IMG/VR virus record: IMGVR_UViG_3300023179_005195
Coordinates: 1-64,000 of that record
Origin: a virus
Direction: 5' to 3' (one strand)
Length of the DNA stretch: 64,000 bases
Part shown: in pieces, positions 11,756-60,378 of the stretch
Layout of the letters: each line of letters opens with the position of its first letter
Numbering within the stretch: position 1 is the first letter of the stretch
Translations under genes and position numbers: made by a program
Notes under the pieces: model-generated
The model's database searches: none
What the model saw: only the letters and a program-made list of their open reading frames with translations
What the model was told of the DNA's origin: nothing

Positions 11756-14029
11756 TTATTCAATTTCCGTTGTAACGCTTTGTTTTTTAGTTTTTACAGG
11801 CATTATATCTAATATATTGAATACAATTTTATCATCTATAATATCTAATTCTACAAGCCCGCCGTTATTAAGTTTTCCGAAAAGAATTTCTTTACTAAGG
11901 GGTTTCTTGATATGTTCGTCAATAGCTCGTGACAAAGGTCTAGCTCCCATTTTTGAATTAAACCCTTTGGCGATTAAGAAATCAGTCGCAGCTAAATTAG
12001 GTCTAACATGAATATTTTTTTCTTTAATTAATACATTTAGATCATCTATAAATTTGTTTACAATTTTTACCATGGTAATTTTATCAAGTTTTCCAAATTT
12101 TACCATACCATCTAAACGGTTTCTAAATTCAGGCGCAAAAAATCTGTTCACAGCATCTTTAGGGTCGCCGTCTCTTTCTAGACTACCAAACCCTACAGAA
12201 TTGCGTTCAGCATCTGCAGCACCTAAGTTTGAAGTCATAATAATTAAAGCATTACGTCCATCTGCTTTTTTACCATTGCTGCCTGTTATAAATCCATTAT
12301 CCATAAGTTGTAATAAGATACTAAGTACGTCGGGATGTGCCTTTTCTACCTCGTCGAGCAATAGTACGCAGTTAGGATTTTCTTGTAGACTGGTAATAAG
12401 TTGACCTGCATTTTCTTCAAACCCAACATATCCTGGCGGACTGCCTAAAAATTTAGCCACTGAATGTTTTTCTTGAAACTCACTCATATCAAATCTTATT
12501 AGTTTAATCCCTAGCCCAGTGGCTAGTTGCTTTGCTGTTTCAGTTTTACCTACTCCAGTTGGCCCAACAAACAAAAAGCTACCAATAGGTTTATCAACTG
12601 CTTTAAGACCTGCTTGACTAATATAGATTTTATCAACTAAACTTTCTATGGCCTTTTCTTGCCCAAAGATTTTTTGACGTAGTGTTTTGTCCAAGTTTTC
12701 AAGATTTACTGATTCTTTAGCACCTACCTGTTCTATAGGAAGATTTGCTATCTTAGCAACTTCAAAAACAATTTCCTCATGGTCTACTACACCGTTTTCT
12801 TCGTCTTTTACCTTAAACCGAGCACAAGCACAGTCAATAAGGTCTAATGCTTTGTCTGGCAATTTTTTATCAGGAATATACTTGACTGAATAACTTACTG
12901 CATCTAACAATGCTTGATTAGTAATTTTTACACCGTGATGTTTTTCGTAATATTTTTTTACACCTTTAAGAATTTTTATACAAGTATCCTCACTAGGCTC
13001 ATCAATTACTACACGTTGAAAACGTCTCATCAATGCACGATCTTTTTCAAAATGTTTACGAAATTCTTCCCATGTAGTACTAGCAACTACTTTAATAGTT
13101 CCTTTTGTTAGTATTGGCTTTAACATATTAGCCATATCATTGCTGTTGCCGCTGGCTGCGCCTGCACCATTCATCATATGAGCTTCATCTATGAACAATA
13201 TACAATTTTTCTTTCTTTCTAAGGCAGTTAAAACAGTTTTTAATCTTTCTTCAAAATCACCTCTATATTTTGAACCGGCAAGTAGTGAACTAATATCTAA
13301 ACTGTAGACACTGTGTTCTTTAATAAAAGAGGGAACATTATCTTCTACAATATTTTTAGCAAGTCCTTCTGCTATAGCAGTTTTTCCTACTCCTGGGTCT
13401 CCTATTAAAATTACGTTACTTTTATTACGTCTTGCCAACACTAATTGAACTTCTTCAATTTCTTTTTCTCTTCCTATAACAGGATCTATTTTTTTATTTT
13501 TAGCTTTTAATGTCAAATTTACGCAAAACTGATTTAGAAGTTTTTCTAAGTGTGGATGTAATCTTGTTTCACCTGTTTCATCCTCTACCACTTCTTTTAT
13601 ATTTTCTTTTTGTAAAAAGTTAATCAATTTATCTTTATCTATTTTTGCTCGTTTAAGAAAATAATGAGCATAACTTTTCTTTTCTGTAAATATTGCAAGT
13701 AAACAATCTATTGGTTCGATGACAGTTTTTCCGCCAAAAAGAACTGTAGTAAATGTTTTGTTTAATACTCTGTCAAATGTTTGAGTTTTCCTAGGTTTTT
13801 GTATCTCGAGATTGACAATATTAGATAGTTCTTCTTCTAAATATCTATCTAAATCGCTATTTAAACTAGTTAGGTCTGCCCCAAAGTCAGTTAAAATTTT
13901 GTTAAGTTCTTGACTATTAATTAAACAATGTAAAAAATGCTCTAAAGTGATATACTCATGATGCATTTTCATAGCTTTTATTACTGCCTGTTCAAAAACT
14001 CCTTCAAGTTCTTTATTTGGTGAAATCAT
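11756..14029 (-). CDS. clpA: ClpA-like AAA+ unfoldase
   Basis: 757 residues from ATG at 14029 (Shine-Dalgarno AAGGAAA); the open frame extends to 14065 but overlaps deformylase. Two AAA+ modules are visible: Walker A GDPGVGKT with FIDEAH in D1, and GPTGVGKT with LLLDEVEKAHP in D2. A Clp N-domain (HHEYITLEHFLHCL) precedes them. There is no ClpB-type middle coiled coil and the length matches ClpA. At 12188-12199 the D2 loop reads SVGF, at the place where E. coli ClpA has the ClpP-docking IGL, so this is likely a ClpP partner; a phage clpP lies at 37901-38485. It would unfold host or phage proteins for degradation. Co-transcribed after dnaJ and def. Confidence 0.9.
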   Translation of the reverse strand: MISPNKELEGVFEQAVIKAMKMHHEYITLEHFLHCLINSQELNKILTDFGADLTSLNSDLDRYLEEELSNIVNLEIQKPRKTQTFDRVLNKTFTTVLFGGKTVIEPIDCLLAIFTEKKSYAHYFLKRAKIDKDKLINFLQKENIKEVVEDETGETRLHPHLEKLLNQFCVNLTLKAKNKKIDPVIGREKEIEEVQLVLARRNKSNVILIGDPGVGKTAIAEGLAKNIVEDNVPSFIKEHSVYSLDISSLLAGSKYRGDFEERLKTVLTALERKKNCILFIDEAHMMNGAGAASGNSNDMANMLKPILTKGTIKVVASTTWEEFRKHFEKDRALMRRFQRVVIDEPSEDTCIKILKGVKKYYEKHHGVKITNQALLDAVSYSVKYIPDKKLPDKALDLIDCACARFKVKDEENGVVDHEEIVFEVAKIANLPIEQVGAKESVNLENLDKTLRQKIFGQEKAIESLVDKIYISQAGLKAVDKPIGSFLFVGPTGVGKTETAKQLATGLGIKLIRFDMSEFQEKHSVAKFLGSPPGYVGFEENAGQLITSLQENPNCVLLLDEVEKAHPDVLSILLQLMDNGFITGSNGKKADGRNALIIMTSNLGAADAERNSVGFGSLERDGDPKDAVNRFFAPEFRNRLDGMVKFGKLDKITMVKIVNKFIDDLNVLIKEKNIHVRPNLAATDFLIAKGFNSKMGARPLSRAIDEHIKKPLSKEILFGKLNNGGLVELDIIDDKIVFNILDIMPVKTKKQSVTTEIE

Positions 14030-14031
14030 TT

Positions 14032-14520
14032 TTATTTCCTTTTCTTTTTTAATGCTAGGTCCCATTTAAGGCGACTCACACGATCTTTAAACACAATCCC
14101 ATCTAAATGATCGAGTTCGTGTTGAAAGCATTTACTACCTAAGTCAGTAAATGTACCTACTTGAAATTCTCCTTTACTATCTTGCCAAGAGCAATGTACA
14201 AACTTACTACGTTTTATTTTAACAAAAATATTCGGAAAACTCAAGCATCCTTCAGGTAAATCCTCTATTTCTTCTTCAAAATCTATAATTTTTGGATTAA
14301 AATATGCCTGGGAATCACCCTGTATAGCATAATCACCCATGACGAACACTCTGGCTTTTATCCCAACCTGATTAGCTGATAATCCTATACCCTTGTTTGT
14401 AATCATAGTTGATATTAAATTCTTTTCTAACTCTATAGGATCTACTATAGGATTAGCAAAATCGAATTCCGGCATTTTTTCAGACAGAATAGGATGCGGG
14501 AAAGATAAAATTTTGTACAT
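14032..14520 (-). CDS. def: Peptide deformylase
   Basis: 162 residues. All three deformylase motifs are present: GIGLSANQVG (residues 44-53, motif 1), EGCLSFP (90-96, metal-ligand Cys92) and QHELDHLDG (133-141, metal-ligand His134 and His138 with catalytic Glu135). The enzyme removes the N-formyl group from nascent proteins. Phage deformylases are known from marine cyanophages and usually lack the long C-terminal helix; here the end is a short Lys-rich tail. Lies between dnaJ and the ClpA-like gene, forming a protein-processing operon. Confidence 0.92.
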   Translation of the reverse strand: MYKILSFPHPILSEKMPEFDFANPIVDPIELEKNLISTMITNKGIGLSANQVGIKARVFVMGDYAIQGDSQAYFNPKIIDFEEEIEDLPEGCLSFPNIFVKIKRSKFVHCSWQDSKGEFQVGTFTDLGSKCFQHELDHLDGIVFKDRVSRLKWDLALKKKRK

Positions 14521-30791: not shown

Positions 30792-31463
30792 TTATCCGTG
30801 CCATTCTATTGTAGGAAACACTTCAATATTACTAACATATGTATTATCATTTAAATTTAATATTAAATCTATTATTTTTACGATTTCGGTTTTTGATAAT
30901 GCTTTGTTATGATCACCAAGAGGGTATGGATTAGATTCGTTCCACAACGGTGTATTAATTCCTCCTGGATGAATACTGAATACTTTTATTTTATCTTTTC
31001 TTAATTCTTTACCAATGATCTTGGCAAAAGATGTAAGAGCGTGTTTACTTGCACAATACACTGACTGATTATCTAAATTATAGAGTCCTGCTACACTGTT
31101 TATAAAGATAATATGACTGTTTTTACTTATATAGGGTAAAAGTAGTTTAGTAAGTATTACAGGTGATTTGATATTGACATTTAATATATTACAAATTTCT
31201 TCTATGGACAGATTTTCTAGTGTTGACTGTTTAAATCTTGCTGCATTATGTATAACCAAATCTACCTGATAAGGAAAGTTATTGAACAACTTAGCTAACT
31301 GATCATGGCATGACAAGTCTATTGGAATATGAATAAAGTTTTTATGTTCAATATTGCCAACAGTTCTAGAAAGTCCTATCACCTTAAAGTTATTTTGTAA
31401 AAAGTATTGGGCTATATCCTTGCCCAGTCCTTGACTAGTTCCTGTGATTAATGCTGTTTTCAT
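30792..31463 (-). CDS. Short-chain dehydrogenase/reductase
   Basis: 223 residues, classical SDR. TGTSQGLG cofactor loop (residues 8-15), NAA at about 74-76, the catalytic Ser in NSVAGLY and Tyr/Lys in YCASK. It overlaps the cyclase-like gene by 29 bases, so it probably works on the same pathway, as a cyclitol reductase/dehydrogenase; AcbL/AcbN-like steps in C7-cyclitol pathways use related enzymes. Substrate is inference. Last gene of the operon. Confidence 0.85.
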   Translation of the reverse strand: MKTALITGTSQGLGKDIAQYFLQNNFKVIGLSRTVGNIEHKNFIHIPIDLSCHDQLAKLFNNFPYQVDLVIHNAARFKQSTLENLSIEEICNILNVNIKSPVILTKLLLPYISKNSHIIFINSVAGLYNLDNQSVYCASKHALTSFAKIIGKELRKDKIKVFSIHPGGINTPLWNESNPYPLGDHNKALSKTEIVKIIDLILNLNDNTYVSNIEVFPTIEWHG

Positions 31464-32529
31464 ATTCTAAGAATATTTCAATGGTTTTTTTTAAGTCGTC
31501 TGAAGTGACACCATTAGTAATGATATTCTTTCCTAAAGTTTTTGGTAAAGGAATATTTTGATAACCGTCTCTATGTAGTGTTGTCTCTTCTAGTGACATT
31601 AGAATTAAATTTATGTCTGCGAAATCCGAATGAAAAGTTGGCAGTTTGTATTTTCTTATACAATTGTATATACGATTTAGGTCTTGTTTGGTTATAAAGT
31701 TTTTATAATAACTTAAGCAACAGGAAAAAAAGCAATCTAACATTACTGCTTCACCATGTAACATAGAAGGTAGATTTTTCATTTCAATCATAGGACTAAA
31801 TGTATGTCCAAAATCTACTGGTCGTTTTAAGTTTCTTTCATACAGATTGTTTTGTAGTTCGTTAACCATGGTATCTATAGATTGAAATAATATTTCATCG
31901 CTATTTTGTAATGAGTTTGAAACGATATTATTACCTTGTTCAATAAGTTCGAATAATTTTAAATTGCTAATAATAGCGAGTTTTAAAATTTCACCAATTC
32001 CATTTATAATCTGTTTTTCTTCTTGAGTTTTGAAGAACTTTTTGTCTAATAAGACTTTAGAAGGGGGATAATAGCTACCCAATCTATTTCTTTTACCTAA
32101 GTAATTAATTCCAACCTTAGTACCTATACTTGCATCTACGTAGGCAAGTAAAGTAGTAGGAATTTTTATATACGGAATTCCTCTTCTATATATACTACAT
32201 GCAAATCCTACCAAATCCAATAACACTCCTCCTCCTATTGCAATTACTTCTTCTCTTCTTAAAAGATTATTATGGTTGAAAAAATTAATAATCTTTTCAA
32301 TACTTTGCAAATTTTTTTGAGTTTCTTCGATTTGAAGTTTTAGTATTACAGCATCTGGAAATATATCAAGAAAGTCGGAATATAATAAACTAATTTTTTT
32401 ATCTACAATAATAATTTGTCTTTTATTAAAATCTATATGGTTTTTTAAAAAATTATTATTAGTAAGATCATATGTTTCTATTATCGAAAATTCTTGTTCT
32501 AATTGGCAATTTATATTCCAAGTATTCAT
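31435..32529 (-). CDS. Sedoheptulose-7-phosphate cyclase/DHQ-synthase-like
   Basis: 364 residues, dehydroquinate-synthase fold. NAD-binding GGGVLLDLVGF (about 98-108), then IPTTLLAYVDASIGTKVGIN and KRNRLGSYYPPSKVLLD, metal ligands in GIGEILKLAII (Glu), VDFGHTFSP (His) and LHGEAVMLD (His). DHQ synthases read NFGHTFGH at the second site; the FGHTFSP and KRNRLGSYYPP forms are those I recall from 2-epi-5-epi-valiolone synthases and related sedoheptulose-7-phosphate cyclases. So it likely makes a C7 cyclitol from a pentose-phosphate intermediate. A divergent DHQ synthase remains possible. Coupled by ATGA to the upstream kinase-fold gene. Confidence 0.8.
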   Translation of the reverse strand: MNTWNINCQLEQEFSIIETYDLTNNNFLKNHIDFNKRQIIIVDKKISLLYSDFLDIFPDAVILKLQIEETQKNLQSIEKIINFFNHNNLLRREEVIAIGGGVLLDLVGFACSIYRRGIPYIKIPTTLLAYVDASIGTKVGINYLGKRNRLGSYYPPSKVLLDKKFFKTQEEKQIINGIGEILKLAIISNLKLFELIEQGNNIVSNSLQNSDEILFQSIDTMVNELQNNLYERNLKRPVDFGHTFSPMIEMKNLPSMLHGEAVMLDCFFSCCLSYYKNFITKQDLNRIYNCIRKYKLPTFHSDFADINLILMSLEETTLHRDGYQNIPLPKTLGKNIITNGVTSDDLKKTIEIFLEYENSINHRN

Positions 32530-33485
32530 TTAAAAATCTTATTAAATAGGTAACAAGCATGTACGAAGAAATATTTAGCCTTGTCTATTTCTCCTGCATA
32601 ACATTTAAATGGCAACATTCTTATAAATTGACTAGCTTCTAAAATATCTATAAATGTTAAATCTTTTTTATTAATATTATTAAGAAAACATTCTGTAAAT
32701 TTCAAATAATTTTTTGGAACTACTTGGTTATAAAATACTGAGTTACCATTGATATTGACTTCTCTATCATTAATAAATCCATAAAAGCTTCTAGAACATT
32801 GTAATACCTGACTATAGTCTAAAAACTTACTATCTATTATACTTTCTTCATATAAATCTATAAATTTTATTTTGTCTTCATCTATTGAATACATGGTGTT
32901 TTCAAGTGTGGGATTGCCATGAATAAAGTTTTCATATTCTAAATCTATAGATGAAAAATATTTTTCTAATACATGCAGCTCATTTACAATATTAGGAACT
33001 TTTTGACCATTATAAAAATATGAATTATGTTTAAGAAAATTGTTAAATCCTTCATTTTTTCTTGCATCTAAAATTTTTTGAAATATTTCTTCTTGAAAGT
33101 AAAGAAAAGTTGCTCCTTTGTTTGCAATTAACTTATTTGCATGAATTTTATTAAATGCTTGCCAAAGTGAATTATTAATTTTTAAAATGAGATTATCTGA
33201 TATATGATCTCTTGAAAAAATAGTTTTTATGTCTGTATATCCCTGTAAAAATTCTAAATCAAAATAAGCGTTGCCATTTTCTACTCCAACGCTTAAAACT
33301 TTAGGGACAAGATTTGGCCACATTGTCGTAAATCTCTGCAACTTTTTTAACTGAGAATACCATCTTACATACCCGTATTCTCTAGACGATGAAAGATTAA
33401 TGGTTTTCCTTACAAATTCAAAATTATTATCTTTATGATGATTAGTTGAACTTAAACTTCCTCCTTTTAGCGGTATAATTTGCAT
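32526..33485 (-). CDS. APH/choline-kinase-fold protein, catalytic Asp replaced
   Basis: 319 residues. Kinase-like features: N-lobe SSTNHHKDNNFEFVRKTIN with the Lys of the VRK strand, a DLEFLQGY hinge, catalytic loop NFIHGNPTLENTMY and metal loop IKFIDLYEE. The usual HGDxxxxN reads HGNxxxxN here (AAT at 32913-32915), so the catalytic base is Asn and phosphotransfer may be weak or lost. The pairing with the cyclase suggests a cyclitol kinase or a derived binding protein. Confidence 0.65.
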   Translation of the reverse strand: MQIIPLKGGSLSSTNHHKDNNFEFVRKTINLSSSREYGYVRWYSQLKKLQRFTTMWPNLVPKVLSVGVENGNAYFDLEFLQGYTDIKTIFSRDHISDNLILKINNSLWQAFNKIHANKLIANKGATFLYFQEEIFQKILDARKNEGFNNFLKHNSYFYNGQKVPNIVNELHVLEKYFSSIDLEYENFIHGNPTLENTMYSIDEDKIKFIDLYEESIIDSKFLDYSQVLQCSRSFYGFINDREVNINGNSVFYNQVVPKNYLKFTECFLNNINKKDLTFIDILEASQFIRMLPFKCYAGEIDKAKYFFVHACYLFNKIFK

Positions 33486-34581: not shown

Positions 34582-35488
34582 TGGTATATGATAATCCTGT
34601 ACCTAAATCAATACTAGGTTCCCATTTTAATATCTTTTTGGCCATGTCTATATTTGGTCTACGTTGCAATGGATCGTCATCCGGTAGTTTTTTATATACT
34701 ATTTTGCTTACACTATGAGTCTTTTCTAAAATAATCTTGGCTAATTCCAGTATTGTAAATTCACCGGGGTTACCTAAATTTATCGGCCCGCAGGTATAAA
34801 AATCGGTGTCCATCATAGATACCATGCCACGTATTAGATCATCTACATAACAAAAGCTCCTGGTCTGGTTACCGTTACCATATATGGTAATATCTTCTCC
34901 TCTTAACGCTTGTACTATGAAATTACTGATCACACGGCCGTCGTCAATACCAACTCTTGGTCCGTATGTATTAAAAATTCTAACAATTTTTGTATCCACG
35001 TGATGTTTGCGTCTATAGTCCATAAACAGAGTTTCTGCTGAACGTTTGCCTTCATCATAACAAGCACGAGTCCCAATAGGGTTAACATTGCCCCAATAAT
35101 CTTCTGTCTGTGGGTGAATTTGAGGATCACCATAGACTTCACTAGTACTGGCTTGTAAAATTTTCGCACCTGTGCGTTTGGCCAATCCCAACATATTGTA
35201 AGCACCTAATATGCTGGTCTTCATGGTCTGTATAGGATCTAGCTGATAATACTTAGGACTAGCAGGGCAGGCCAAGTTATAGATTTCATCTACTTCTACA
35301 TACAATGGAAAACAGATATCTTGTCTTAAAAATTCAAAATAGGGATTAGGTAATAAGTGCTGGATATTTTGTATACTTCCAGTAAAATAATTATCTACAC
35401 ACAATACGTGATTACCTTTTTTTAAAAGATATTCACATAAATGGCTACCTAAAAAACCTGCTCCACCTGTTACTAATATTTTTTTCAT
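34556..35488 (-). CDS. UDP-glucuronate decarboxylase-like (UDP-xylose synthase)
   Basis: 310 residues, extended [13 protein letters not shown] cofactor loop (8-17), [19 protein letters not shown], catalytic Tyr/Lys in CYDEGKR, and [21 protein letters not shown], closely matching UXS enzymes that make UDP-xylose from UDP-glucuronate. It overlaps the DadA-like gene at its start (ATGA). May feed the phage glycosyltransferases; an ArnA-type decarboxylase for the same substrate lies at 60583-61581. Confidence 0.88.
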
Positions 35489-36669
35489 TATGTTCCTTTA
35501 ACAATTCTTACTAATTCTTTAGCAGTAGCACTGGCTAATGTCCATCCTAAATGGCCATGGCCTACATGATAAAATATCTTAGGATTTTTACCTTGTTTTA
35601 CAATAGGCAGCATGTTAGGGGTCATGGGTCTAAGACAAGCCCAAGGTTTGTAATATCTTGTTGAAATATCAGGAAAATTATTGTTAACCCATTTCAATAG
35701 TGGATTGATTCTATCTTGCCTTATGTCCCAATTATCACCTATTATTTCTGCTGTACCCGCTACCCTGAGATGATTACCCAGTCTGCTGGTTACTATTTTA
35801 GATTCGTCGTCTAAAAGGCTTACGAATGGAGCAGATTCTGATGAGCTCAAAGTATCTAACTTAATTGTTATACTATAGCCTTTTACTGGATAGATAGGTA
35901 AATTATCACCTAGCATTTTACTGGTATGTCTAGCATGACTGCCGTTGGCTATGATGATATGATCGTAATCTAATAATTTTTCAATAGATAGTATTTCAGT
36001 ATTAAAGAAAAATTTAACATCATATTTTTCTTCTAATTTTTTGTATAATTCGAAACAAAATTTATGAATATCTCCGGTATAATCGCTAGGCGTATATATA
36101 CCTCCAACTAGGTTATCAAATTTTTCAAGTGCGGGTTCAATTTTAAGTAATTTACTATAATCGTTAATAATTTGCCATTCGCACCCATTGTGGGCATAAA
36201 GTTCTTGTAACATCATGGCTTCATTGAAATAATTTGCATTTTTATAGATATGTAAAATACCCTTGTTCAACCGATCATATTTTATATTTTCTTCTTTTTC
36301 GATCTCACTATACAATTTACGTGATTCTAATCCTAGTGTAATTGTTTTAATTGTATTTCTAGCGAATTCATTATTTGCTGTATGATATAAAAACTTAGCT
36401 AGCCATTTGGCTTTATCCCAATCTAAACTAGGTCTTAATAAAAGCGGAGCATCTTTACGAGCCAACCATTTAATACCCTTATAGACATTTGACCAAGTAT
36501 TCCATGTTTGGCTATTACTTACAGAGATTTGCCCGCCATTTGCATAACTACATTCCATAGCAGGATAAGATTCTTTTTCATAAACTTTAACATTGTAACC
36601 TGCTTGTGTCAAATAATAAGCAGCGGTTATTCCTGCTATTCCTGCTCCAATTACTGCTACATTTTTCAT
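35488..36669 (-). CDS. D-amino-acid dehydrogenase (DadA-like)
   Basis: 393 residues, FAD-dependent oxidoreductase. N-terminal [15 protein letters not shown] (GxGxxG) with the acidic end of beta-2 (VKVYEKE), [10 protein letters not shown] near the flavin, KGYSITIKL, and C-terminal [15 protein letters not shown] and [12 protein letters not shown], all as in DadA. Oxidises D-amino acids such as D-alanine to keto acids. Unusual in a phage; wall-derived D-Ala is a plausible substrate but that is inference. Slightly shorter than bacterial DadA. Confidence 0.87.
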
Positions 36670-36679: not shown

Positions 36680-36859
36680 TTATTTTGTTTTACGCCACCA
36701 ACGTTCTGTATCTGCCCATGATTTATCACTGCAATCTCTGCACTCGTAAAAACCATTAGGCAGATCTGGTGTAATTACAATATTCAGCCAAAATCCTATA
36801 ACACATCCAAGGATTACGAGTATTACTGCACCTATTAATGAGAAAATAAAATCCTTCAT
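36680..36859 (-). CDS. Small membrane protein with CxxC
   Basis: 59 residues, below the usual gene-finding cutoff. One N-terminal membrane helix (FIFSLIGAVILVILGCVIGFWL) then YECRDCSDKSW, a CxxC pair. ATG overlaps the stop of the QueD-like gene as ATGA, the same coupling used throughout, which supports reality. Function unknown. Confidence 0.65.
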   Translation of the reverse strand: MKDFIFSLIGAVILVILGCVIGFWLNIVITPDLPNGFYECRDCSDKSWADTERWWRKTK

Positions 36860-37419
36860 TCAAAGCCTGCAAATAAATCCTCATTCCATTCTCTATGACC
36901 TTCTCTAAAAGCCATGTTAGCCTGAGTTTCTCTTACTTCCACACGATAACACCATAGTCTGTCTGCTTCGCCTGGACCCCACATATCAGGAATATAAACA
37001 GCGTTGACATACTTGTAAAGCATGTCTGCTAGACTTTCGCAACCTAATTTAGGTAATATTGTAAGTTTCGCTAATTTTTTCTCCTGAAGTAATTTAAATG
37101 TTTGAAATTCCGGATCATCTTGTGCCACCAGTAATGTATGATCGAATTTATCTTCTAAAAATTTTTTTAATTCTTTTAATCCGCCATAATCAGCAGCCCA
37201 GTTCCTTACATCTAAATCATTAGTTCCAAAATAGAATTTCATAGAAAATGAATAACCGTGTATCATATTACAATGGCTGTCAGCTCGCCATTGACGATAT
37301 GCACAAGGAAATGCGTCATGATATTCTTTTGTACTGGTATATTTGTATGTTACAGGATAATATGTTGAAAAGCTTGTTTCAGAATTTTGTTTTAGTTCTA
37401 ATGTTGATGATCTTGTCAT
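36856..37419 (-). CDS. 6-pyruvoyl-tetrahydropterin synthase/QueD-like
   Basis: 187 residues, T-fold pterin enzyme family. DAFPCAYRQW, DSHCNMIHGYSFSM, WAADYGGLKELK and KFDHTLLVAQDD align with the QueD core (FSAAH, C-HGHxY, DF..hK, LDH..L). Two of the three usual zinc histidines read Tyr (CAY and HGY), and only MIH and nearby SHC remain, so metal binding must differ. A FolE that could supply its substrate is at 53327-54016. First gene of a long operon behind an exact promoter; Shine-Dalgarno AAGGAGG. Confidence 0.75.
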   Translation of the reverse strand: MTRSSTLELKQNSETSFSTYYPVTYKYTSTKEYHDAFPCAYRQWRADSHCNMIHGYSFSMKFYFGTNDLDVRNWAADYGGLKELKKFLEDKFDHTLLVAQDDPEFQTFKLLQEKKLAKLTILPKLGCESLADMLYKYVNAVYIPDMWGPGEADRLWCYRVEVRETQANMAFREGHREWNEDLFAGFE

Positions 37420-37900: not shown

Positions 37901-38485
37901 TTATCTGGAGGCTACGATCCTATCACATAGTCCATAAACAAATGCTTCTTCTGCACTCATAAACTTATCGCGATCCATGTCACGCTCAAAGTCTTCATAG
38001 GTCTTACCTGCGGTATTATGTTTCACATACAGGTTGGTTAACATATGTTTCATGGCCATAATTTCTTTATAGGAAATTTCAATATCTGATGCCATACCTC
38101 TAGCACCTCCACTGGGCTGGTGAATCATATGGCGTGCATGGGGCAACATATAGCGTTTACCCGCAGTGCCTGCCTGTGCTAAAAATGACCCCATAGAACA
38201 GGCTTGCCCTAAAACATATGTGGCAATGTCTGGTTTAACAAACTGCATGACATCATAGATAGCCATGCCTGCTGTAATTATACCGCCTGGGCTATTGATA
38301 TAAAAATTAATATCTTTGTCAGAGTCTTGACTTTCTAAGTGTAGAATTTGAGCGATGATTAAATTACTTACATTGTCGTCTACTGGACCATTTAGAAAAA
38401 CAATACGTTCGTTTAAAAGTCTACTGTAAATGTCAAAGGCACGTTCACCTTGACTGGTCCGTTCAATTACCATAGGTACTAGCAT
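37901..38485 (-). CDS. clpP: ClpP protease subunit
   Basis: 194 residues, normal ClpP size. Oxyanion GG in [13 protein letters not shown], catalytic Ser97 in [10 protein letters not shown] and His122 in HMIHQPSGG, with Asp in the C-terminal [11 protein letters not shown] region. Forms the tetradecameric chamber fed by Clp ATPases. The phage also encodes a ClpA-like partner with an SVGF loop. It lies in the operon starting with the secreted subtilisin. Confidence 0.92.
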
Positions 38486-40554: not shown

Positions 40555-42528
40555 TTATTTGAATATATAATTATAAAATAATCCCATTTTATAAGAATCT
40601 GAAGAACCAGACCAAGATATGCCGATATTGCTTACATGTGATAAAGATCGTTTATAACTTAAAGATAGTATTGGCTTTATATTATTTTGAGCTAAATTTA
40701 TGCGCTCTTTTCCAATAACAGGTGATGCTGTAAAATTGCCTTCTGCATCTTCCTCATAAGTATATCCTGTTACTGCCGTAATCTGTGCATAGCCCTTAAC
40801 GATATGCACAGGATTAGCTATTTTCAATTGTAAAACATCTTGCTCATAAAATATATTATTAGATTTGAGCCCGACACTCCATGTTGCAGATCGTAATCCA
40901 GGTTCGGTATAAATCATGCTGTAAGTTGAATTCAAAATATCTGTCATACCTTGACCATAGTTTGCTACTAGATTAGTTGTATCAGTTAACTTTCTTTCTA
41001 TGCCTAACATCATCCAATTTGTATAACTACTGCCCAAGGATAGAGATCCATATCCAGAATTACCTAGATAGCCATTGAAATCTTGCTGATTACCTACCTG
41101 TAGGTTATAAAACCAGTTATGCTGATAAATGTTCAGTTCAGTAGCTAATCCATTATAAGACTTATGTATGGTTAAGTCTTTATTTTTATCAATCGGTAAT
41201 TTAATCATGCTAGAAAATGATAACCAAGGACTATCTGGATTATACACAACAGGTAATTTGGCAATAGCTCGAGTAAAGTCTGCTGTATAATTTCTATCAT
41301 AGCTGTCTATCACCTGAGCAGTCTTAAGTATATTGCTTGAAACCAGTAATGATGTAAAATTACCCTGACCTAATAATTTTGTTCCGTCAATATTATTAAT
41401 AACATTACTAGGTTGCGGTATATCGGATCCTAGTTTCATATTAGCAGAGGCTAGTTTTATTATACCTTGAGATTTAGCAGCATTGGCAAAGTCTACCATA
41501 CCTCTGCCATATATATTATCTGTGCCAGGAGCTCCGAGATCTTTAGTTGTACTCAATACTAATTTAACTAATTGTTCAGAGCGTAGTTGAGGCCATGCTT
41601 GCCTTAATAATGCTATACCACCAGTGACTAATGCTGCACTTTCACTGGTTCCAGATCCATAAATTGTAGAATTTCCTAAAGCCTGTGCCTGGGGAATTTT
41701 GTTTCCAGGTGCTACAACAAAAAAATCAGTAGTTTTAACAAGATCTAAGCAAGTATTAGCAACAGGCATTGAACAAATGTGGCCAGCTCTATTGCTAAAA
41801 GTGCTGATTGTTCCGTCATCAGAAACACTGCCTACCACTAACATTTTTCCACCTAAGATTAGATTACCGTAGATATCTAGTCTCGAAGCAAACTGCGCAG
41901 GAAAACTAGCATATGGTAATGATTGGTTGCCTGCGCTGATAACAATAATAGAATTACGGCCTGTTGCCACGGCCAATGAATCAGTCTTAGTTACAGTTCT
42001 TAGCAGAGATTGGTCTACAATATAAGTATTTGTCTTAGTATCATATCGGGCTGATTTAATAAAATTATCATCATATGCATACCCTAGACTAGCATTAATC
42101 ACAGAAGCACTCCATGAGCTAGCCCAATTTAGTGCTAAATTAAATGCTGCCGTGCTCATAAGTGGACTGTACTGGCCAGCGCCTATTTGCGCTAACCATA
42201 GATGTGATTCTGGCGCTACACCTACTACTCCACCATTGCCTGCCTTAGCTCCAATAATACTAGCCATGCCAGTTCCATGGCCTGCCCATTTAACATTACT
42301 AGTAAGATCATAAAAATTGCTTGCTTTCCAAAATCTTCCTTCAAGATCTTTATGATTTAAATCAAAACCGTTATCAATAACTGCAACTCTTACTCCAGAA
42401 CCTTTGTACCCATATTGCCAGACTGTGTCTATTCCTACGACCTTATAACTATTTGGTAAAGATTCTACCTGTGAATATGCTACTGAATTAAACAAAAGTA
42501 AAGCAGGCAAAAGTTTTTTTAAGTTCAC
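40555..42528 (-). CDS. Secreted subtilisin-like protease with barrel-like C-terminus
   Basis: 657 residues, GTG start with AAGGAAG ahead. Signal peptide MNLKKLLPALLLFNSVAYSQ (AYS|Q). Peptidase S8 domain about 30-350 with Asp52 in AVIDNGF, His84 in GHGTGMAS, oxyanion Asn201 in SAGNQ and Ser295 in GSGTSESAA: the full triad. Residues about 370-657 are alternating amphipathic strands ending FYNYIFK, like an outer-membrane barrel or autotransporter translocator. A bacterial-type secreted or surface protease is very unusual in a phage. It has its own promoter and heads the operon that contains clpP. Confidence 0.85.
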   Translation of the reverse strand: MNLKKLLPALLLFNSVAYSQVESLPNSYKVVGIDTVWQYGYKGSGVRVAVIDNGFDLNHKDLEGRFWKASNFYDLTSNVKWAGHGTGMASIIGAKAGNGGVVGVAPESHLWLAQIGAGQYSPLMSTAAFNLALNWASSWSASVINASLGYAYDDNFIKSARYDTKTNTYIVDQSLLRTVTKTDSLAVATGRNSIIVISAGNQSLPYASFPAQFASRLDIYGNLILGGKMLVVGSVSDDGTISTFSNRAGHICSMPVANTCLDLVKTTDFFVVAPGNKIPQAQALGNSTIYGSGTSESAALVTGGIALLRQAWPQLRSEQLVKLVLSTTKDLGAPGTDNIYGRGMVDFANAAKSQGIIKLASANMKLGSDIPQPSNVINNIDGTKLLGQGNFTSLLVSSNILKTAQVIDSYDRNYTADFTRAIAKLPVVYNPDSPWLSFSSMIKLPIDKNKDLTIHKSYNGLATELNIYQHNWFYNLQVGNQQDFNGYLGNSGYGSLSLGSSYTNWMMLGIERKLTDTTNLVANYGQGMTDILNSTYSMIYTEPGLRSATWSVGLKSNNIFYEQDVLQLKIANPVHIVKGYAQITAVTGYTYEEDAEGNFTASPVIGKERINLAQNNIKPILSLSYKRSLSHVSNIGISWSGSSDSYKMGLFYNYIFK

Positions 42529-49995: not shown

Positions 49996-50280
49996 TTACG
50001 CCTTTTCGTATGTCTGCCAAAAAATATCGGGTTTACAGGGATAGAACTCTCCTTGGACACCTTTTATTATGTAATCACCTTCTGTGGCAATATGCTTAAC
50101 GGTAAGATGAACACCATCTTCTAATGTGCCAATTTCTGCTTCACCTAGAGCGTCTGGGTGACGTTCTTTGTGCGTATTACCCAAAGCAGATCCACAGAAT
50201 TCGCGGAGTTGTTCTATCCCTTCTTTACTATAAACAAATTCTAATGCTTCTATTGTAACAGGTTTCTTTCTATATTTCAA
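49996..50280 (-). CDS. Small phage protein, MKYRKKPVTIEA family
   Basis: 94 residues. Start MKYRKKPVTIEALEF and end EGDYIIKGVQGEFYPCKPDIFWQTYE are hallmarks of a very widespread phage family of unknown function. Stop lies just before the next ATG. Confidence 0.85.
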   Translation of the reverse strand: MKYRKKPVTIEALEFVYSKEGIEQLREFCGSALGNTHKERHPDALGEAEIGTLEDGVHLTVKHIATEGDYIIKGVQGEFYPCKPDIFWQTYEKA

Positions 50281-50975
50281 TCTTTCTTCTCGCCAAATAG
50301 TTGTAGTAGATTTAAAAATAAGTTTATAAAATCCAAATAGAGTGTTAGAGCGCCACTAATTTCCACTGCATCTGAGGTATCTACACTTAGCATTTCTCTT
50401 ATCTTTTGAGTATCGTAAGCAGTTAGTCCCAAAAATATAATGATAGCAAGAGCGCTAATGACCATGCCGAGTACACTGCTACCAATGAAAATATTGACAA
50501 TACTGGCAAGAATAATAGCGATAAGACCAACAAACATAAACTTTCCGACACTATCCAAGCTCTTCTTTGTGAAGTATCCGTATCCACTCATAACTCCAAA
50601 TAAAATTGCAGCACCCATAAAGGCACCAAATATACTACCCATTTTAAATATTATAAAGATAGTAGCAAAACTAAGCCCCATTAACGCAGCAAATCCGTGA
50701 AGTAAAGCAATAGCCACAAGCTTACTAGGCTCATTATTCAATGCGTATGAAATACCAAATACTGCAACTAATGGTAAGAACATGGTTATCCATTTCATCC
50801 AGCCTGTGAAGAAAAAGGCCATTAATGCTGGACTAGAACTTACAAATAAACTAACTATCATACTTGTCAAAACTGCTAGTGCCATATGTCCATAGACACG
50901 GCCCATGGCAGAATTAATCTCTTCCGCACTTCTATATGTAAAACTATTGTATGTTAAAATGTCTGTTCCAAACAT
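50277..50975 (-). CDS. Bax-inhibitor-1/YccA-like membrane protein
   Basis: 232 residues from ATG at 50975, chosen for AAAGGAG ahead; the frame to 51020 overlaps mazG. Seven membrane segments, N-terminal YMxHhahAhL-like MGRVYGHMALAVLTSM, middle GLSFATIFIIFKMGSIFGAFMGAAILFGVMSGYGY and C-terminal LTAYDTQKIREML...ALTLYLDFINLFLNLLQLFG with the conserved Asp residues, as in BI-1 channels (YccA/YbhL group). In bacteria YccA modulates FtsH; a phage might guard its membrane proteins. That role is inference. Confidence 0.88.
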   Translation of the reverse strand: MFGTDILTYNSFTYRSAEEINSAMGRVYGHMALAVLTSMIVSLFVSSSPALMAFFFTGWMKWITMFLPLVAVFGISYALNNEPSKLVAIALLHGFAALMGLSFATIFIIFKMGSIFGAFMGAAILFGVMSGYGYFTKKSLDSVGKFMFVGLIAIILASIVNIFIGSSVLGMVISALAIIIFLGLTAYDTQKIREMLSVDTSDAVEISGALTLYLDFINLFLNLLQLFGEKKD

Positions 50976-50977
50976 GA

Positions 50978-51346
50978 TTACTCCTTTGGTAAAAATGGTT
51001 GTAGATGAGGAGGACTCCAACCATCGGGTTTCAATACTTTGCCATCCTCTCTCTTATTTACTTTTCCAGAGTTTACATCTATTTTTGATAGATTACTACG
51101 CATGACTTCTCGCCATGCACCTTCTGCATCTGCTCCCATTGAATGAATAGCACCGATGGTAACAACCAAAATGTCAATCAATGCATCTAATTGGTCTAAC
51201 TGTGTTTTAGATTCTTGCAGTTCAAGAAACTCTTCTGTTATTAATTTAAGATAGAGAGTAAACTGGCGCGAATTTATTTCGCCAACAGTTTGATCACAGG
51301 CTAACATAAATCGTTCTTGATCTTTAAAAGGATTAGACACGGTCAA
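50978..51346 (-). CDS. mazG: MazG-like nucleotide pyrophosphohydrolase
   Basis: 122 residues. Metal-binding ITEEFLELQES and DQLDALIDILVVTIGAIHSMG form the EExxE...ExxD-like core of the MazG superfamily; ends with SKIDVNSGKVNKREDGKVLKPDGWSPPHL, as in phage MazG of marine T4-like phages. Hydrolyses NTPs or (p)ppGpp-type substrates in relatives; specificity unknown here. Confidence 0.85.
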   Translation of the reverse strand: MTVSNPFKDQERFMLACDQTVGEINSRQFTLYLKLITEEFLELQESKTQLDQLDALIDILVVTIGAIHSMGADAEGAWREVMRSNLSKIDVNSGKVNKREDGKVLKPDGWSPPHLQPFLPKE

Positions 51347-52589: not shown

Positions 52590-53312
52590 TTAATTTTTTG
52601 GCACACTTAAGTTATAATTAAAGTGGAAGATACCTATATGAGCAACTTCTTTACTTAATTCTTGATCACACCAAATTTCATATCCTGCCTTTTGTGCCTG
52701 TTGACAGAAAAATATATCTTCTCCAATTTCTAAATTTAAACTGGGAATATATTCCTGTAAATAATGTGGTTGTGGTATACGTTCGTATACTTCCCTATGA
52801 ACTAAAACTAATCCATGCGGCAAAACGTCGATTAACTCCATCGGAGGACTGTTGTCAGTGGTATGAAATTCACTAAACTGTCCTGCATTACCCATCATCC
52901 CTGTGAAGTTTGGATTAGGAAATCTACGTCTACGATAGTTACAGCCTACAATGGCCTTGTTTCTTTTTAGTAGTCTAAGGGGAGTATCAACAGGAAATTT
53001 CATATCTGAATCTACCCACCAGATATAATCAAAATCGCTCTTTAGAAAAATGTCAACTAAGTTTCTACGTGCAATTGTTATAACGCTTCCAATGTTAAAT
53101 GCACAATTAATACGAACGCCGTGTGCAACCATATTAGCACAGGCCATGGCTAAGTGTTGTGCGAATTCGGCATTTACCATTTCCATTGCAGGTACTGCTA
53201 CCATTACACTTGGTGGACGACCTTGTGAATCTGTTTGTGCTGGTGTTTGATTGATATTAGCTGATGCCGGAGTCTGAATTCGACTGGGAATATTTAATTT
53301 ACCTTTTTTCAT
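52590..53312 (-). CDS. GT-A family glycosyltransferase-like protein
   Basis: 240 residues. Pro/Gln-rich N-terminal linker, then VMVAVPAMEMVNAEFAQHL, IGSVITIARRNLVDIFLKSDFDYIWWVDSDMKFP with the DxD-type VDSDM metal motif, VGCNYRRRRFPNPNFTG and EDIFFCQQAQKAG. Shine-Dalgarno AAAGG. Acceptor unknown; could modify DNA bases, virion or host surface. Precedes folE in transcription order (folE is upstream). Confidence 0.75.
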   Translation of the reverse strand: MKKGKLNIPSRIQTPASANINQTPAQTDSQGRPPSVMVAVPAMEMVNAEFAQHLAMACANMVAHGVRINCAFNIGSVITIARRNLVDIFLKSDFDYIWWVDSDMKFPVDTPLRLLKRNKAIVGCNYRRRRFPNPNFTGMMGNAGQFSEFHTTDNSPPMELIDVLPHGLVLVHREVYERIPQPHYLQEYIPSLNLEIGEDIFFCQQAQKAGYEIWCDQELSKEVAHIGIFHFNYNLSVPKN

Positions 53313-53326
53313 TTGTTACCTTTAAG

Positions 53327-54016
53327 TTATCGTTTCTGGCAAGAATTTACAATATTCATAAATTCTAATCGTACACTGGGATCTGATTTAAATACTCCTC
53401 CCAATTTACTAGTTGTAGTAGATGAACCTGTGTCCTCAACTCCTCTACTTTTGACACAATAATGTTGGGCGTCGATAACTACCGCAATATTTTCTGTATC
53501 TAAAATATAGGATAACGCATGATATATCTGTTCAGTAAGTCTTTCTTGAATTTGAGGACGTTTACTAAAATATTCTACTACTCTATTAATTTTACTCAAT
53601 CCTAGTACTTTTGTTCTTGGTATGTATGCTACTGTGGCCAATCCGTCAATAACAACAAAATGATGCTCACAATTGGATTGAACATTAATATTACGTTCTA
53701 CGACCATTTCATCGTATTTCATTTTATTGTCCACTGTGGTACATTTAGGAAATGCTTCCCAATCTAACCCCCAGAAGATTTCATTTACATACATCTTGGC
53801 CACACGCTTTGGTGTTTCTGCTAGACTATCATCTGATAAATCTAGATCAAGAGCCTTCATTATTTGAGAAAACAATTGCTCAATTACTTCAATTTTACCT
53901 TTACGATCTATTATAAAGGTTCGTTCACTAGTAGGAGTTTCTACTCCGCATTTTACCAAATGTTCATGAATACGACGACCAAGATCAGGGTCTGTTTTAG
54001 TTTTATTATAAGACAT
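53327..54016 (-). CDS. folE: GTP cyclohydrolase I
   Basis: 229 residues from ATG at 54016 (GGAAGG ahead; the longer frame to 54067 is rejected). Zinc ligands in NCEHHF and HYCVKSRG, IPRTKVLGLSKINRVVEYFSKRPQ, TEQIYHAL, and VEDTGSSTTTSKLGG. Converts GTP to dihydroneopterin triphosphate, the entry to folate, biopterin and 7-deazaguanine routes. A QueD-like gene is 16 kb away; QueE/QueC are not in this window. Confidence 0.93.
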   Translation of the reverse strand: MSYNKTKTDPDLGRRIHEHLVKCGVETPTSERTFIIDRKGKIEVIEQLFSQIMKALDLDLSDDSLAETPKRVAKMYVNEIFWGLDWEAFPKCTTVDNKMKYDEMVVERNINVQSNCEHHFVVIDGLATVAYIPRTKVLGLSKINRVVEYFSKRPQIQERLTEQIYHALSYILDTENIAVVIDAQHYCVKSRGVEDTGSSTTTSKLGGVFKSDPSVRLEFMNIVNSCQKR

Positions 54017-54049
54017 TATATTTCCTTCCTTACGCGGTACGCTTAATTT

Positions 54050-54065
54050 GTCACCGTTATGTGAC
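54050..54065. promoter_or_regulatory. Small dyad GTCAC-N6-GTGAC upstream of folE
   Basis: Perfect 5-bp arms with 6-base centre CGTTAT, 34 bases before the folE start, near a weak CTGACA-17-CATAAC promoter-like pair and an AATAAATA box at 54071-54078. Possible operator. Confidence 0.3.
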
Positions 54066-54085
54066 ATTCATATTTATTTGTCAGA

Positions 54086-54319
54086 TTAATAGTCATTCAG
54101 TAATCCTGAAATCATCATCTCACGTTCTGTCATATGTGCGACAGGTCGAAGCCAACCTTTACCAAGACATTCTAAAATTATGTCTTTATATTTCTCTGGA
54201 CATTTTCGGGCGATTTCAAAACTTGCTCTTGGAGACACTGTCATTTCATCATTGATTAAAAATGCAGGGTTATCTGTCTTGATTGAAATAATCTGAGATT
54301 GATAAGTTTTAAAGTTCAT
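54086..54319 (-). CDS. Small conserved phage protein
   Basis: 77 residues from ATG at 54319, MNFKTYQSQIISIKTDNPAF. RASFEIARKCPEKYKDIILECLGKGWLRPVAHMTEREMM is the typical family core (pRA.FEI...CP..Yk.ii..ci..GWL.PVA.h...E). The ATG falls at the predicted transcription start, implying a leaderless message. Function unknown. Confidence 0.8.
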   Translation of the reverse strand: MNFKTYQSQIISIKTDNPAFLINDEMTVSPRASFEIARKCPEKYKDIILECLGKGWLRPVAHMTEREMMISGLLNDY

Positions 54320-54339
54320 ACTTGATTGTAACATCAAGT
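54320..54339 (-). promoter_or_regulatory. Dyad ACTTGAT-N6-ATCAAGT on the promoter
   Basis: Perfect 7-bp arms centred on the -10 box of the 54325 promoter and ending right before the ATG at 54319. Likely operator or read-through hairpin. Confidence 0.4.
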
Positions 54340-54353
54340 TATATGAGTGTCAA
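54325..54353 (-). promoter_or_regulatory. Sigma-70 promoter for 54319 gene, folE and downstream
   Basis: Minus strand TTGACA (54348-54353), 17 bases, TACAAT (54325-54330). -35 exact, -10 one mismatch. Confidence 0.8.
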
Positions 54354-55063
54354 TACCAGATATAAAAATTATTTTTAAACGGCTTTCCATTTTTTGCCTT
54401 ATTGAGATTTTTTTGAATTTGCTTTTTGAGTCGTTGCATCACAGGATGGTTCCAATCTTTTTTAAAAACCTGTAAGTATTTCCTTAAACATGGCATTTTG
54501 GTTGTATGGCATTTAATTTTACCATCTAAAAAATCTATAATACGTAGATTATCATTTTTAAACTTCATTAGTAGTTCACAGGCAATGTTAAAACTGTAGG
54601 CATCTATCTCATCTCTATGTCCAAGATAATTTTGTTCTTCTCTTAATTCAGTATGTTTTACTACACTTATATAATTAGGAATGTCTTTATAATTTCTTTT
54701 TCTATATTGCCTCATATGGATAATTTCGTGTAACATAACATCACTTATTAAACTAGCTAAAGAAAATAAATTCGATGTGCATATGCTGATTTTTTTATAT
54801 CTTTTAGCATAATAACAATCTATTGTGATAGATTTTTTTCCTAATTGATCTGATTCGGCACAATAAGAGCCCCCTATATAAATTTCATTTTTTGGAACTT
54901 TAGGTGTATAGTGAGCTTTTACAATAACTGGTGCAATTGACTTTATATGCCTAGATAGACGTTTATGAAATAAGGTTACAGGTAGATCATCATCCTGCAA
55001 ATTATATGTTTGATATATACTGTCTATAATATGGTTTCTAGATAAATTAGCCCAGATAAACAT
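54350..55063 (-). CDS. SprT-like zinc metalloprotease-fold protein
   Basis: 237 residues from ATG at 55063 (frame to 55108 overlaps the next gene). HExxH motif in MLHEIIHMRQYRKR and a downstream Glu in HRDEIDAYSFNIACELL suggest a gluzincin-like/SprT metallopeptidase. C-terminus is Lys-rich (KKQIQKNLNKAKNGK). AT-rich. Sits at the end of the glycosyltransferase operon; substrate unknown. Confidence 0.7.
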   Translation of the reverse strand: MFIWANLSRNHIIDSIYQTYNLQDDDLPVTLFHKRLSRHIKSIAPVIVKAHYTPKVPKNEIYIGGSYCAESDQLGKKSITIDCYYAKRYKKISICTSNLFSLASLISDVMLHEIIHMRQYRKRNYKDIPNYISVVKHTELREEQNYLGHRDEIDAYSFNIACELLMKFKNDNLRIIDFLDGKIKCHTTKMPCLRKYLQVFKKDWNHPVMQRLKKQIQKNLNKAKNGKPFKNNFYIWY

Positions 55064-55071
55064 CAAAATAT

Positions 55072-55773
55072 TTATAATATTAATTTTTTTGGAATCATAT
55101 ATAACCAATTCATTACACCAGGCCTACCTTCACTCAATAGCAAATTTTTTTCTTCTTTGGTTAGATCTTTAATAGCATGATGATCCGATGTTTTGTTTAA
55201 ATCATCTAAGATATTAAAGACATGATGTGAATCATTAAATCTTTCATTTAAAATTTGCGTAATAGGAATACCTTGAAAATCGTGGCATTCAACAATAATA
55301 CACGATTTTACCAATTCGCTGTTTATGTTTTGATCTAAAAAAGTTATCTCATACCCTTCAACATCTATGAATAAAAAAGGTTTCTTGTACTTGCGCATAA
55401 TATATTGTATTACATCTATATCAGCATAGTTCCATAATTCTACATTAGATAACTTATTTGATTGAAGATTATACAAAGCATTAATTAGCTCGTGTTCTGC
55501 ATTATCTATAAGAATGTTTCTGACATTGGGGAGTCGTTTAGCTAACCCTAACCCGTAATATCCTTCACCACACCCTAAATTTATAACTAAATCTGGTTGG
55601 TAGTTTATTGTCTGTTCAATGGCAGCGTAAAGTTGCGATTCATAACTTCCTAATAATTTATTTCCTAAACATCCATTGTCGTAATTGCATAATTTTAAAC
55701 CAGTAAAGGGTCCTTGTTGAACAATCCCTTGTGTTCTTTCATGTACAATATTATTTAAATATGTTCTATTCAT
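55072..55773 (-). CDS. FkbM-type methyltransferase
   Basis: 233 residues from ATG at 55773, overlapping the upstream stop by 8 bases. SAM motif VINLGCGEGYYGLGLA, then NILIDNAEHELI and PFLFIDVEGYEITFL, the FkbM signature. Probably O-methylates a sugar. Neighbours are glycosyltransferases. Confidence 0.8.
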   Translation of the reverse strand: MNRTYLNNIVHERTQGIVQQGPFTGLKLCNYDNGCLGNKLLGSYESQLYAAIEQTINYQPDLVINLGCGEGYYGLGLAKRLPNVRNILIDNAEHELINALYNLQSNKLSNVELWNYADIDVIQYIMRKYKKPFLFIDVEGYEITFLDQNINSELVKSCIIVECHDFQGIPITQILNERFNDSHHVFNILDDLNKTSDHHAIKDLTKEEKNLLLSEGRPGVMNWLYMIPKKLIL

Positions 55774-56524
55774 ACAATAATCTTCCATCTTTACTGGTAT
55801 ATCTTTTATTAGGGTCAAAATGACCGTATGTTTCAAACCCAGGTTCTCCTGGTAATATACGTTTGCCTGTGAACCATTCACCGATATGGTTTATAAGTTT
55901 AAGTCCAAAAAAGTTTTTAACATTGGCAGATACCATGCCGTATTTGTCATTTAAAATTTTACCAATTGTCCCTTCATTAATATTATGAGAAATTAATTCT
56001 TTCCAGGGATACTTAATTATATTATGGCTATAAAGACTGGCCATAGGTGAAAATATGCAACTATTTTTTTGGTACCTAAAATTCTTGTAAATTATATCAT
56101 CGTTGTTTGCACTAGGATCTTGCTCATTACTGTACCAAGCCTGTCTAGATAATGTAACCTGACTGATTTGTTTGTCTTTTTCTAAAATTTCAATTAAATC
56201 ACTTATACAAATAGGTTCTAGAAAGACCACATCATCCTCTTGATGAAATATATAATCATACTCTCTATCTCTTATCATATTCCAAAATTCTGTCCAGGTA
56301 GCACTTAGACCAATATTGTTCTTATGAAAAATTATTTCGTTATAGTTATAGTAAGTTAAAAATGATCTTAACATAAGATCATTTCTTGTCCTGGGATAAT
56401 CATCTATAAAAATCTTATCAACTTTACATCCGTACCAATTTAACATTCTTTGACTATTCAAACTTGGGATTAGATATTCTAGTCTGTTAGTGCTAAAAAT
56501 GATGTGACAAATTTTATAACTCAT
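55766..56524 (-). CDS. Family-2-like glycosyltransferase
   Basis: 252 residues. HIIFSTNRLEYLIPSL, nucleotide-binding KIFIDDYPR, NNIGLSATWTEFWNMI and the metal motif FHQEDDVVFLEP (EDD). Overlap-coupled to its neighbours on both sides. Adds an unknown sugar in a multi-step glycan pathway. Confidence 0.8.
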   Translation of the reverse strand: MSYKICHIIFSTNRLEYLIPSLNSQRMLNWYGCKVDKIFIDDYPRTRNDLMLRSFLTYYNYNEIIFHKNNIGLSATWTEFWNMIRDREYDYIFHQEDDVVFLEPICISDLIEILEKDKQISQVTLSRQAWYSNEQDPSANNDDIIYKNFRYQKNSCIFSPMASLYSHNIIKYPWKELISHNINEGTIGKILNDKYGMVSANVKNFFGLKLINHIGEWFTGKRILPGEPGFETYGHFDPNKRYTSKDGRLLYE

Positions 56525-58840: not shown

Positions 58841-58874
58841 ATTATTAATTATCTTAATACTTAATTACAAAAAA

Positions 58875-59054: not shown

Positions 59055-59063
59055 AATATTCTC

Positions 59064-60375: not shown

Positions 60376-60378
60376 GAA

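Follow-up and report, generated by a model that had tools for sequence, protein, structure and literature searches.

The 64,000-nucleotide stretch analyzed here (hereafter the window) covers positions 1 to 64,000 of the virus record IMGVR_UViG_3300023179_005195, which is 73,210 bases long. Positions 30792-33485 hold three overlapping minus-strand genes, an arrangement that a preliminary description made from the sequence alone had already pointed out and that is borne out by open reading frames (ORFs) of 319, 364, and 223 amino acids. They encode a predicted small-molecule kinase, a sugar phosphate cyclase, and a short-chain dehydrogenase/reductase (SDR), and form what we refer to as the operon. 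The kinase and cyclase genes overlap by 4 bases and the cyclase and SDR genes by 29 bases, and all three frames are intact. A viral contig of 138,457 bases encodes a copy of all three proteins that is 100% identical; both this contig and the record of the window are classed as linear and are perhaps incomplete. The genes and the motifs referred to below are:

32526..33485, minus strand: APH-like small-molecule kinase (predicted cyclitol kinase), 319 aa, first gene of the operon
31435..32529, minus strand: sedoheptulose-7-phosphate-cyclase-type enzyme, 364 aa, nearest ValA and 2-epi-5-epi-valiolone synthases (EEVS)
30792..31463, minus strand: SDR (predicted ring-ketone reductase), 223 aa
31792..31812, minus strand: cyclase motif FGHTFSP, residues 240-246 (metal ligand H242; P246 is His in 3-dehydroquinate synthases, DHQS)
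32062..32094, minus strand: cyclase motif KRNRLGSYYPP, residues 146-156
32913..32921, minus strand: kinase motif HGN, residues 189-191, replacing the HGD expected of the fold

The central gene matched the Pfam families DHQ_synthase (E 6.9e-36) and DHQS_C (1e-22), but its score against the NCBIfam model aroB (215.7 bits) fell below the model cut-off of 305. Among sequences in the PDB its best match was ValA (4P53, 231.7 bits), followed by a desmethyl-4-deoxygadusol synthase (DDGS; 5TPR, 192.4) and the best DHQS (3CLH, 152.3). The predicted structure (mean pLDDT 91.2) aligned with ValA at Z 49.4, with a root-mean-square deviation of 1.5 A over 346 residues, compared with Z 49.0 for DDGS and 41.7 for the best DHQS. 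Both motifs listed above, together with the metal ligands of DHQ synthases that the preliminary description had singled out, are present in the translation and the alignment, the ligands being E180, H242, and H258. Next we compared 36 columns of the active-site region, chosen by us, in an alignment of 58 cyclases. The window cyclase carries the ValA letter in 31 of these columns and differs at S134, K146, S152, Y154, and T243. Where the ValA letter is absent from all five DHQS (15 columns), it agrees with ValA in 12, including N228, V238, D239, P246, D265, and H319; at positions 239, 246, and 265 the DHQS have N, H, and G, whereas the window cyclase has D, P, and D. Likewise, in the 10 columns in which neither of two DDGS has the ValA letter, it agrees with ValA in seven. 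The two DDGS have Ala at 239 and Thr at 319, and DDGS identity was rejected for the window cyclase on these active-site residues (D239, H319). One study reports an active-site fingerprint for this type of cyclase (PMC4426668). PHROGs contained no family for the window cyclase or for that of locus L073.

A careful tree was built from 56 rows, with L118 and L111 left out for their long branches and kept in a quick tree. All 42 operon cyclases formed a single clade (100/99) beside EEVS and DDGS, and the window cyclase was placed within a phage-only clade of 28 rows (100/99). Five further phage rows sit among those of bacteria, suggesting that cyclase genes have moved between the two. The operon clade joined a group of ValA, Streptomyces clavuligerus, and DDGS at a deeper node (91/74), at which these sequences do not resolve whether it is nearer EEVS or nearer DDGS. 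Forcing the window cyclase to group with DHQS cost 47 log units and was rejected (p-AU 0.0011), and forcing all operon cyclases to do so gave p 0.023. Placement inside the DHQS clade with DHQS residues, named in advance as the outcome that would overturn the EEVS-like assignment, was thus not what we found: the enzyme groups with ValA/EEVS and DDGS and has mostly ValA residues, S134 and T243 being exceptions. Considering the aroB score, the residues, and the clade test, identity as a 3-dehydroquinate synthase was rejected, and the alignments and the structural model together indicate that the window cyclase is not such an enzyme. The SDR encoded downstream is an ordinary adh_short protein (Pfam, E 6.2e-37) with both classical motifs of these enzymes, TGxxxGxG and YxxxK.

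The window kinase had no match in Pfam, NCBIfam, or PHROG at E 0.001. The earlier guess of a kinase fold is nevertheless backed by a confident predicted model (mean pLDDT 94.0), whose list of matching folds was led by APH-type proteins: APH(4)-Ia (Z 19.0), 5-methylthioribose kinase (18.3), a choline-kinase family protein (18.2), and fructosamine kinases (17.9). This list speaks for the families on it and does not exclude those absent from it. The homologue from a Polynucleobacter isolate (L107) scored 22.0 bits (E 1.5e-4) against Pfam APH, for which the cut-off is 23.2. Judging from the model, the operon kinase is predicted to be APH/fructosamine-kinase-like. A ROK-type kinase such as ValC or AcbM found no support, as judged by the absent Pfam match at that threshold and the APH-like predicted fold. 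The predicted fold is held in common with structures of APH, fructosamine-3-kinase, methylthioribose kinase, and choline kinase (Z 17-19), but identity to them is 9-16%, and they carry HGD where the operon kinase carries HGN. Among the 37 aligned members of the kinase family, K27, N196, and D210 are conserved. Using the window or the L007 kinase as query, no close relatives were found in cultured phages or plasmids, and the L096 kinase retrieved distant relatives in Bacillus phage G and a fecal phage scaffold. Separately, ORFs of about 650 aa from the Polynucleobacter group (L129:358-2310 and L131:340-2283) contain a distant kinase, with HGD in L129, following an apparent membrane domain; both adjoin a nucleotidyltransferase of the same family as that described below, with no cyclase in the 3-4 kb seen.

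Viral contigs were then searched with the kinase alignment alone, which yielded 92 relatives, of which the best 80 were retained; one of these is the identical copy of the window genes. The cyclase lies directly downstream of the kinase in 76 of the 80 loci and the SDR comes next in 72, while the loci that break this order (L034, L035, L037, L056, L092, L094, L097, and L099) all end at a contig edge. A nucleotidyltransferase of one broad family is present within the locus in 74/80 and directly upstream of the kinase in 58/80, the six loci without it being that of the window's own phage, L023, L071, L081, L083, and L086. Pfam NTP_transferase was matched in L002 and L007; in L012-L014 and many of L073-L088 the enzyme lies 1-2 kb upstream and shares only 22-25% identity with the reference. 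Gene order was also counted over 47 representatives at 90% kinase identity (38 viral and 9 from bacterial or archaeal bins or an isolate), which stand for 90 loci and leave out L105 and L112, where no kinase was called. Kinase and cyclase are adjacent in 46 of them, with a 4-base overlap in 26, and the remaining one stops 182 bases past the kinase; the nucleotidyltransferase is directly upstream of the kinase in 30/47 and follows the SDR in others. A separate search with the cyclase alignment recovered 15 viral loci. Median dN/dS among the phage relatives was lowest for the nucleotidyltransferase (0.038, 70 pairs) and reached 0.060 for the cyclase (158 pairs), 0.083 for the SDR (71 pairs), and 0.086 for the kinase (87 pairs), in pairs that are not independent and that omit the window, its one near copy being identical. 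Selection on the operon genes of the phage relatives is purifying, and these low ratios together with the adjacency of kinase and cyclase in 76/80 loci indicate that the grouping is more than chance.

Related operons were also found outside viruses. One scan of genome contigs with the kinase gave 11 loci, ten of which have the cyclase and, among those ten, eight the SDR. The carriers were bins named Fibrobacteria, Balneolaceae, Myxococcales, Holophagaceae, Bacteroidetes, and Woesearchaeota, and the isolate Polynucleobacter sp. 80A-SIGWE. Only the Polynucleobacter locus (L107) comes from an isolate with a long contig; its order is kinase, cyclase, SDR, and nucleotidyltransferase, and from the sequences we read the surroundings as a probable polysaccharide locus. 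Distribution of the kinase family in bacteria is sporadic: matches occurred in 5/186 Polynucleobacter genomes, full-length with cyclase and SDR in only two, and in 3/52 genomes of the class to which one Myxococcales bin belongs. For several of the genome bins, misbinned phage could be the source of the three nearest cassette genes.

C7 cyclitols are known mainly from actinobacterial drugs, sunscreens, and some plant symbionts. The conserved, intact, and strictly linked genes, the predicted cyclase and kinase folds, the largely ValA-type active site, and the fourth gene of the relatives are all computed features of this operon, as are the glycosylation-type neighbours described below. In our reading, the operon is probably a short phage pathway that converts host sedoheptulose 7-phosphate into a C7 cyclitol (a carba-sugar, a ring-shaped sugar mimic of the acarbose kind), which in most relatives is nucleotide-activated for glycosylation. 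Specifically, the cyclase would convert sedoheptulose 7-phosphate into 2-epi-5-epi-valiolone (EEV) or a stereoisomer, the SDR would reduce the ring ketone, and the APH-like kinase would phosphorylate the new hydroxyl. In most relatives the nucleotidyltransferase would then make a nucleoside diphosphate (NDP)-cyclitol to serve as donor for a glycosyltransferase encoded nearby, the acceptor belonging to the phage or to its host. Substrate, step order, stereochemistry, product, and acceptor are those that we infer. By analogy with the acarbose route, four enzymes (to cyclise, reduce, phosphorylate, and nucleotidylate) could suffice for a simpler donor. The pairing of cyclase, kinase, and SDR that had been likened to bacterial C7N-cyclitol pathways holds for the gene set and apparently fails for the type of kinase, predicted to be APH-like here rather than ROK as in validamycin and acarbose synthesis. 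As for the product, for which DNA modification, virion decoration, and inhibition of host glycosidases had been suggested, the nucleotidyltransferase of the relatives favours an NDP-cyclitol for glycosyl transfer over a free inhibitor.

The genes around the operon give this reading its setting. Within 7 kb of the kinase, the 47 representatives encode a 238-aa family (A238) in 31 cases, the family B280 in 21, C236 in 18, and the methyltransferase E230 in 16; an NDP-sugar epimerase is found in 13, the window among them. B280 is Nucleotid_trans-like and also matched a glycosyltransferase PHROG. The 238-aa family matched only families of unknown function and the 236-aa family C236 matched none; we read both as possibly glycosyltransferase-like. 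Directly upstream of the kinase, six representative phage loci (L071 at 881-2119, L073, L075, L076, L077, and L085) encode a protein resembling the RuBisCO large chain (PF00016, E 2.2e-43), with the motif DFIKEDE in four of the six, and the cassette in the Woesearchaeota bin has a gene of this cluster close by (L106:1820-3115). A possible role for the protein is isomerisation or enolisation of the cyclitol or its precursor; a viral RbcL-like protein is reported in a landfill study (PMC12607003). No homologues of A238, B280, C236, E230, or the RuBisCO-like protein were detected in the window (tblastn, E 0.01). There, the UV-repair gene UvdE follows the operon, and small genes, an NDP-sugar epimerase, and, adjoining the latter, a D-amino acid dehydrogenase-like FAD enzyme (35488-36669; 462.6 bits, cut-off 494) precede it. 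A sugar island at 52590-63807 encodes a GT1 glycosyltransferase, a GT2-like protein, an epimerase, a C-methyltransferase-like protein, a second methyltransferase, and a polysaccharide-synthesis C-terminal domain.

A broader proposal, which we put forward only tentatively and hold to be somewhat doubtful, is that many phages in the environment produce a nucleotide-activated carba-sugar themselves and incorporate it into glycans on virions, DNA, or the surface of infected cells. If this is true, the linkage, having no ring oxygen, would resist glycosidases and evade receptors that read ordinary sugars. It would also represent an unrecognised class of surface sugar mimic moving between phages and bacteria, as bacteria carry this four-gene set too, at least once in a setting of polysaccharide type. 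Conservation of the operon across the 80 retained viral loci and in bins from several phyla of bacteria would bring activated cyclitols into phage-host glycobiology. The operon would also shorten the enzymatic route to carba-sugar donors, and it provides a small, directly testable enzyme set.

Several alternatives were weighed against the proposed pathway. One, which we consider unlikely, retains the operon logic and supposes that a different sugar phosphate is used or a different ring isomer made, with a product outside the known EEV/EVS/DDG set. The operon cyclases do form a clade of their own, apart from ValA and DDGS, and vary at positions near the active site: residue 260 is Q in 7/10 bacterial and 4/32 phage rows, residue 321 is N in 31/32 phage rows and D in ValA, and residue 134 is S in all 32 phage rows and G in ValA. 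In addition, one phage group has the RuBisCO-like gene as part of the operon. On the other hand, the window cyclase matches ValA across the 31 of 36 columns, retaining D321. Less probable still is that the operon yields, in place of a glycosyl donor, a small molecule that stays free, for instance an inhibitor of glycosidases or a sunscreen of the gadusol type. Known EEVS pathways yield free products of such kinds (PMC4426668 and PMC5133447), and the operon of the window phage lacks a detected nucleotidyltransferase and adjoins UvdE; yet the nucleotidyltransferase lies within the locus in 74/80 kinase loci, glycosylation-type genes often adjoin, and the Polynucleobacter operon has its apparent polysaccharide setting. 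We hold it equally improbable that the window operon is a decaying remnant which has lost its nucleotidyltransferase, leaving genes without a useful product. The failure to find the fourth gene and the long branch of the cyclase would fit decay, whereas the three overlapping frames are intact, the invariant residues of the family are kept, and an identical copy of the operon exists in a second record. Finally, a divergent 3-dehydroquinate synthase aiding the host shikimate pathway is highly improbable: the Pfam and NCBIfam DHQ synthase models do match and S134 and T243 are DHQS letters, but the score lies below the aroB cut-off, most DHQS residues are absent, and a clade with DHQS was rejected.

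Some results weigh against the pathway from sedoheptulose 7-phosphate to an activated cyclitol. In the APH fold an HGD motif is expected, its Asp being catalytic, and all 37 aligned kinase members have HGN instead (N191 in 37/37), which weakens the kinase assignment. Distant kin of the kinase also occur where a cyclase was not detected. Gp311 of the cultured giant phage Bacillus phage G (JN638751.1 227152-228102) has 26.6% identity to the L096 kinase (E 1e-12), and the 14 phage records that the cyclase matched do not include this phage; HGD-bearing distant kinase fusions occur in three Polynucleobacter-group genomes, with no cyclase in the approximately 3-4 kb seen. The window cyclase shares S134 and T243 with all five DHQS, unlike ValA, and its branch is long (1.6 changes per column). 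Two of the ten bacterial cyclase loci, L104 and L105, show no SDR of the operon's family. No glycosyltransferase was recognised beside the window operon, those recognised lying about 20 kb away. Moreover, searches with the phage enzyme, PF00483, PF01467, and PF02348 detected no nucleotidyltransferase in either the 73 kb record of the window phage or its 138 kb relative. A search with PF12804 also found none in the 138 kb contig, but it missed the known enzyme of the L002 contig too and is therefore insensitive. The window phage would thus depend on its host for this enzyme, encode one that escaped recognition or lies in unsequenced DNA, or have a pathway that ends at a cyclitol phosphate.

Compared with known systems, the window cyclase resembles ValA/EEVS in fold, metal ligands, and chosen columns, but has 34% identity to ValA, belongs to a separate clade, is phage-borne, and is partnered by what is predicted to be another type of kinase. 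The acarbose route, as given in PMC9200736, runs through AcbC, AcbM, AcbO, AcbL, AcbN, AcbU, AcbJ, and AcbR: EEV is phosphorylated, epimerised, converted to valienone and valienol phosphate, phosphorylated again, dephosphorylated, and nucleotidylated to GDP-valienol. Both that route, as there described, and the operon use a cyclase, a kinase, a dehydrogenase, and a nucleotidyltransferase toward an activated cyclitol. The former comprises eight genes with a ROK kinase in an antibiotic cluster, whereas the operon has four genes, an APH-like kinase, and viral or polysaccharide-type settings, and no epimerase, dehydratase, or phosphatase was recognised inside it. A ROK-type kinase is likewise found in the validamycin pathway, and in 3/3 plasmid clusters annotated with a sedoheptulose 7-phosphate cyclase (Rhizobium rhizogenes, Agrobacterium vitis, and Streptomyces clavuligerus), whose cyclases fall in the same wider clade as those of the operon, the kinase annotated alongside belongs to the ROK family. 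EboD, from the ebo operon, is also a sugar phosphate cyclase other than DHQS (PMC5133447), but it lies in a far clade, has His at the position of Pro246 (2/2), and has different neighbours. The nucleotide-sugar island of Synechococcus phage S-CAM9 is similar in having a phage-borne nucleotidyltransferase amid glycosyltransferases, but no cyclase is annotated in the stretch examined and this phage is absent from the 14 records matched by the cyclase. A viral "3-dehydroquinate synthase" is mentioned in the literature for an algal virus and a gut virome. Titles and abstracts contained no report of a phage cyclitol pathway or operon, which is weak evidence of absence as subscription literature was thinly covered. 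Cyclitol activation is already known from antibiotic clusters; a phage operon, an APH-like kinase, and a polysaccharide-type setting for it were not met in the literature searched, the coverage of which is incomplete.

Elsewhere in the window, genes matched a baseplate hub, tail fibres, an endolysin, and a phage ATP-dependent protease. Among 13 virus records tested, a terminase family was matched in five and a tail-sheath family in five (four above cut-off), with both matched in four records of 133-162 kb and neither in the window record or its 138 kb relative. On the cassette contig L028, one neighbouring gene most closely matched genes of Methylophilales, Stenotrophomonas, and Synechococcus phages. 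The window further encodes a ClpA-like ATPase and a ClpP protease (11756-14065 and 37901-38485), a 657-aa protein with a subtilase domain (40555-42528; E 5.2e-37), and a Bax1-I family protein (50277-51020; E 5.8e-51), all carried by a phage. Lastly, a QueD-like gene (36856-37419) and a GTP cyclohydrolase I gene (53327-54067) are of types found in 7-deazaguanine pathways.

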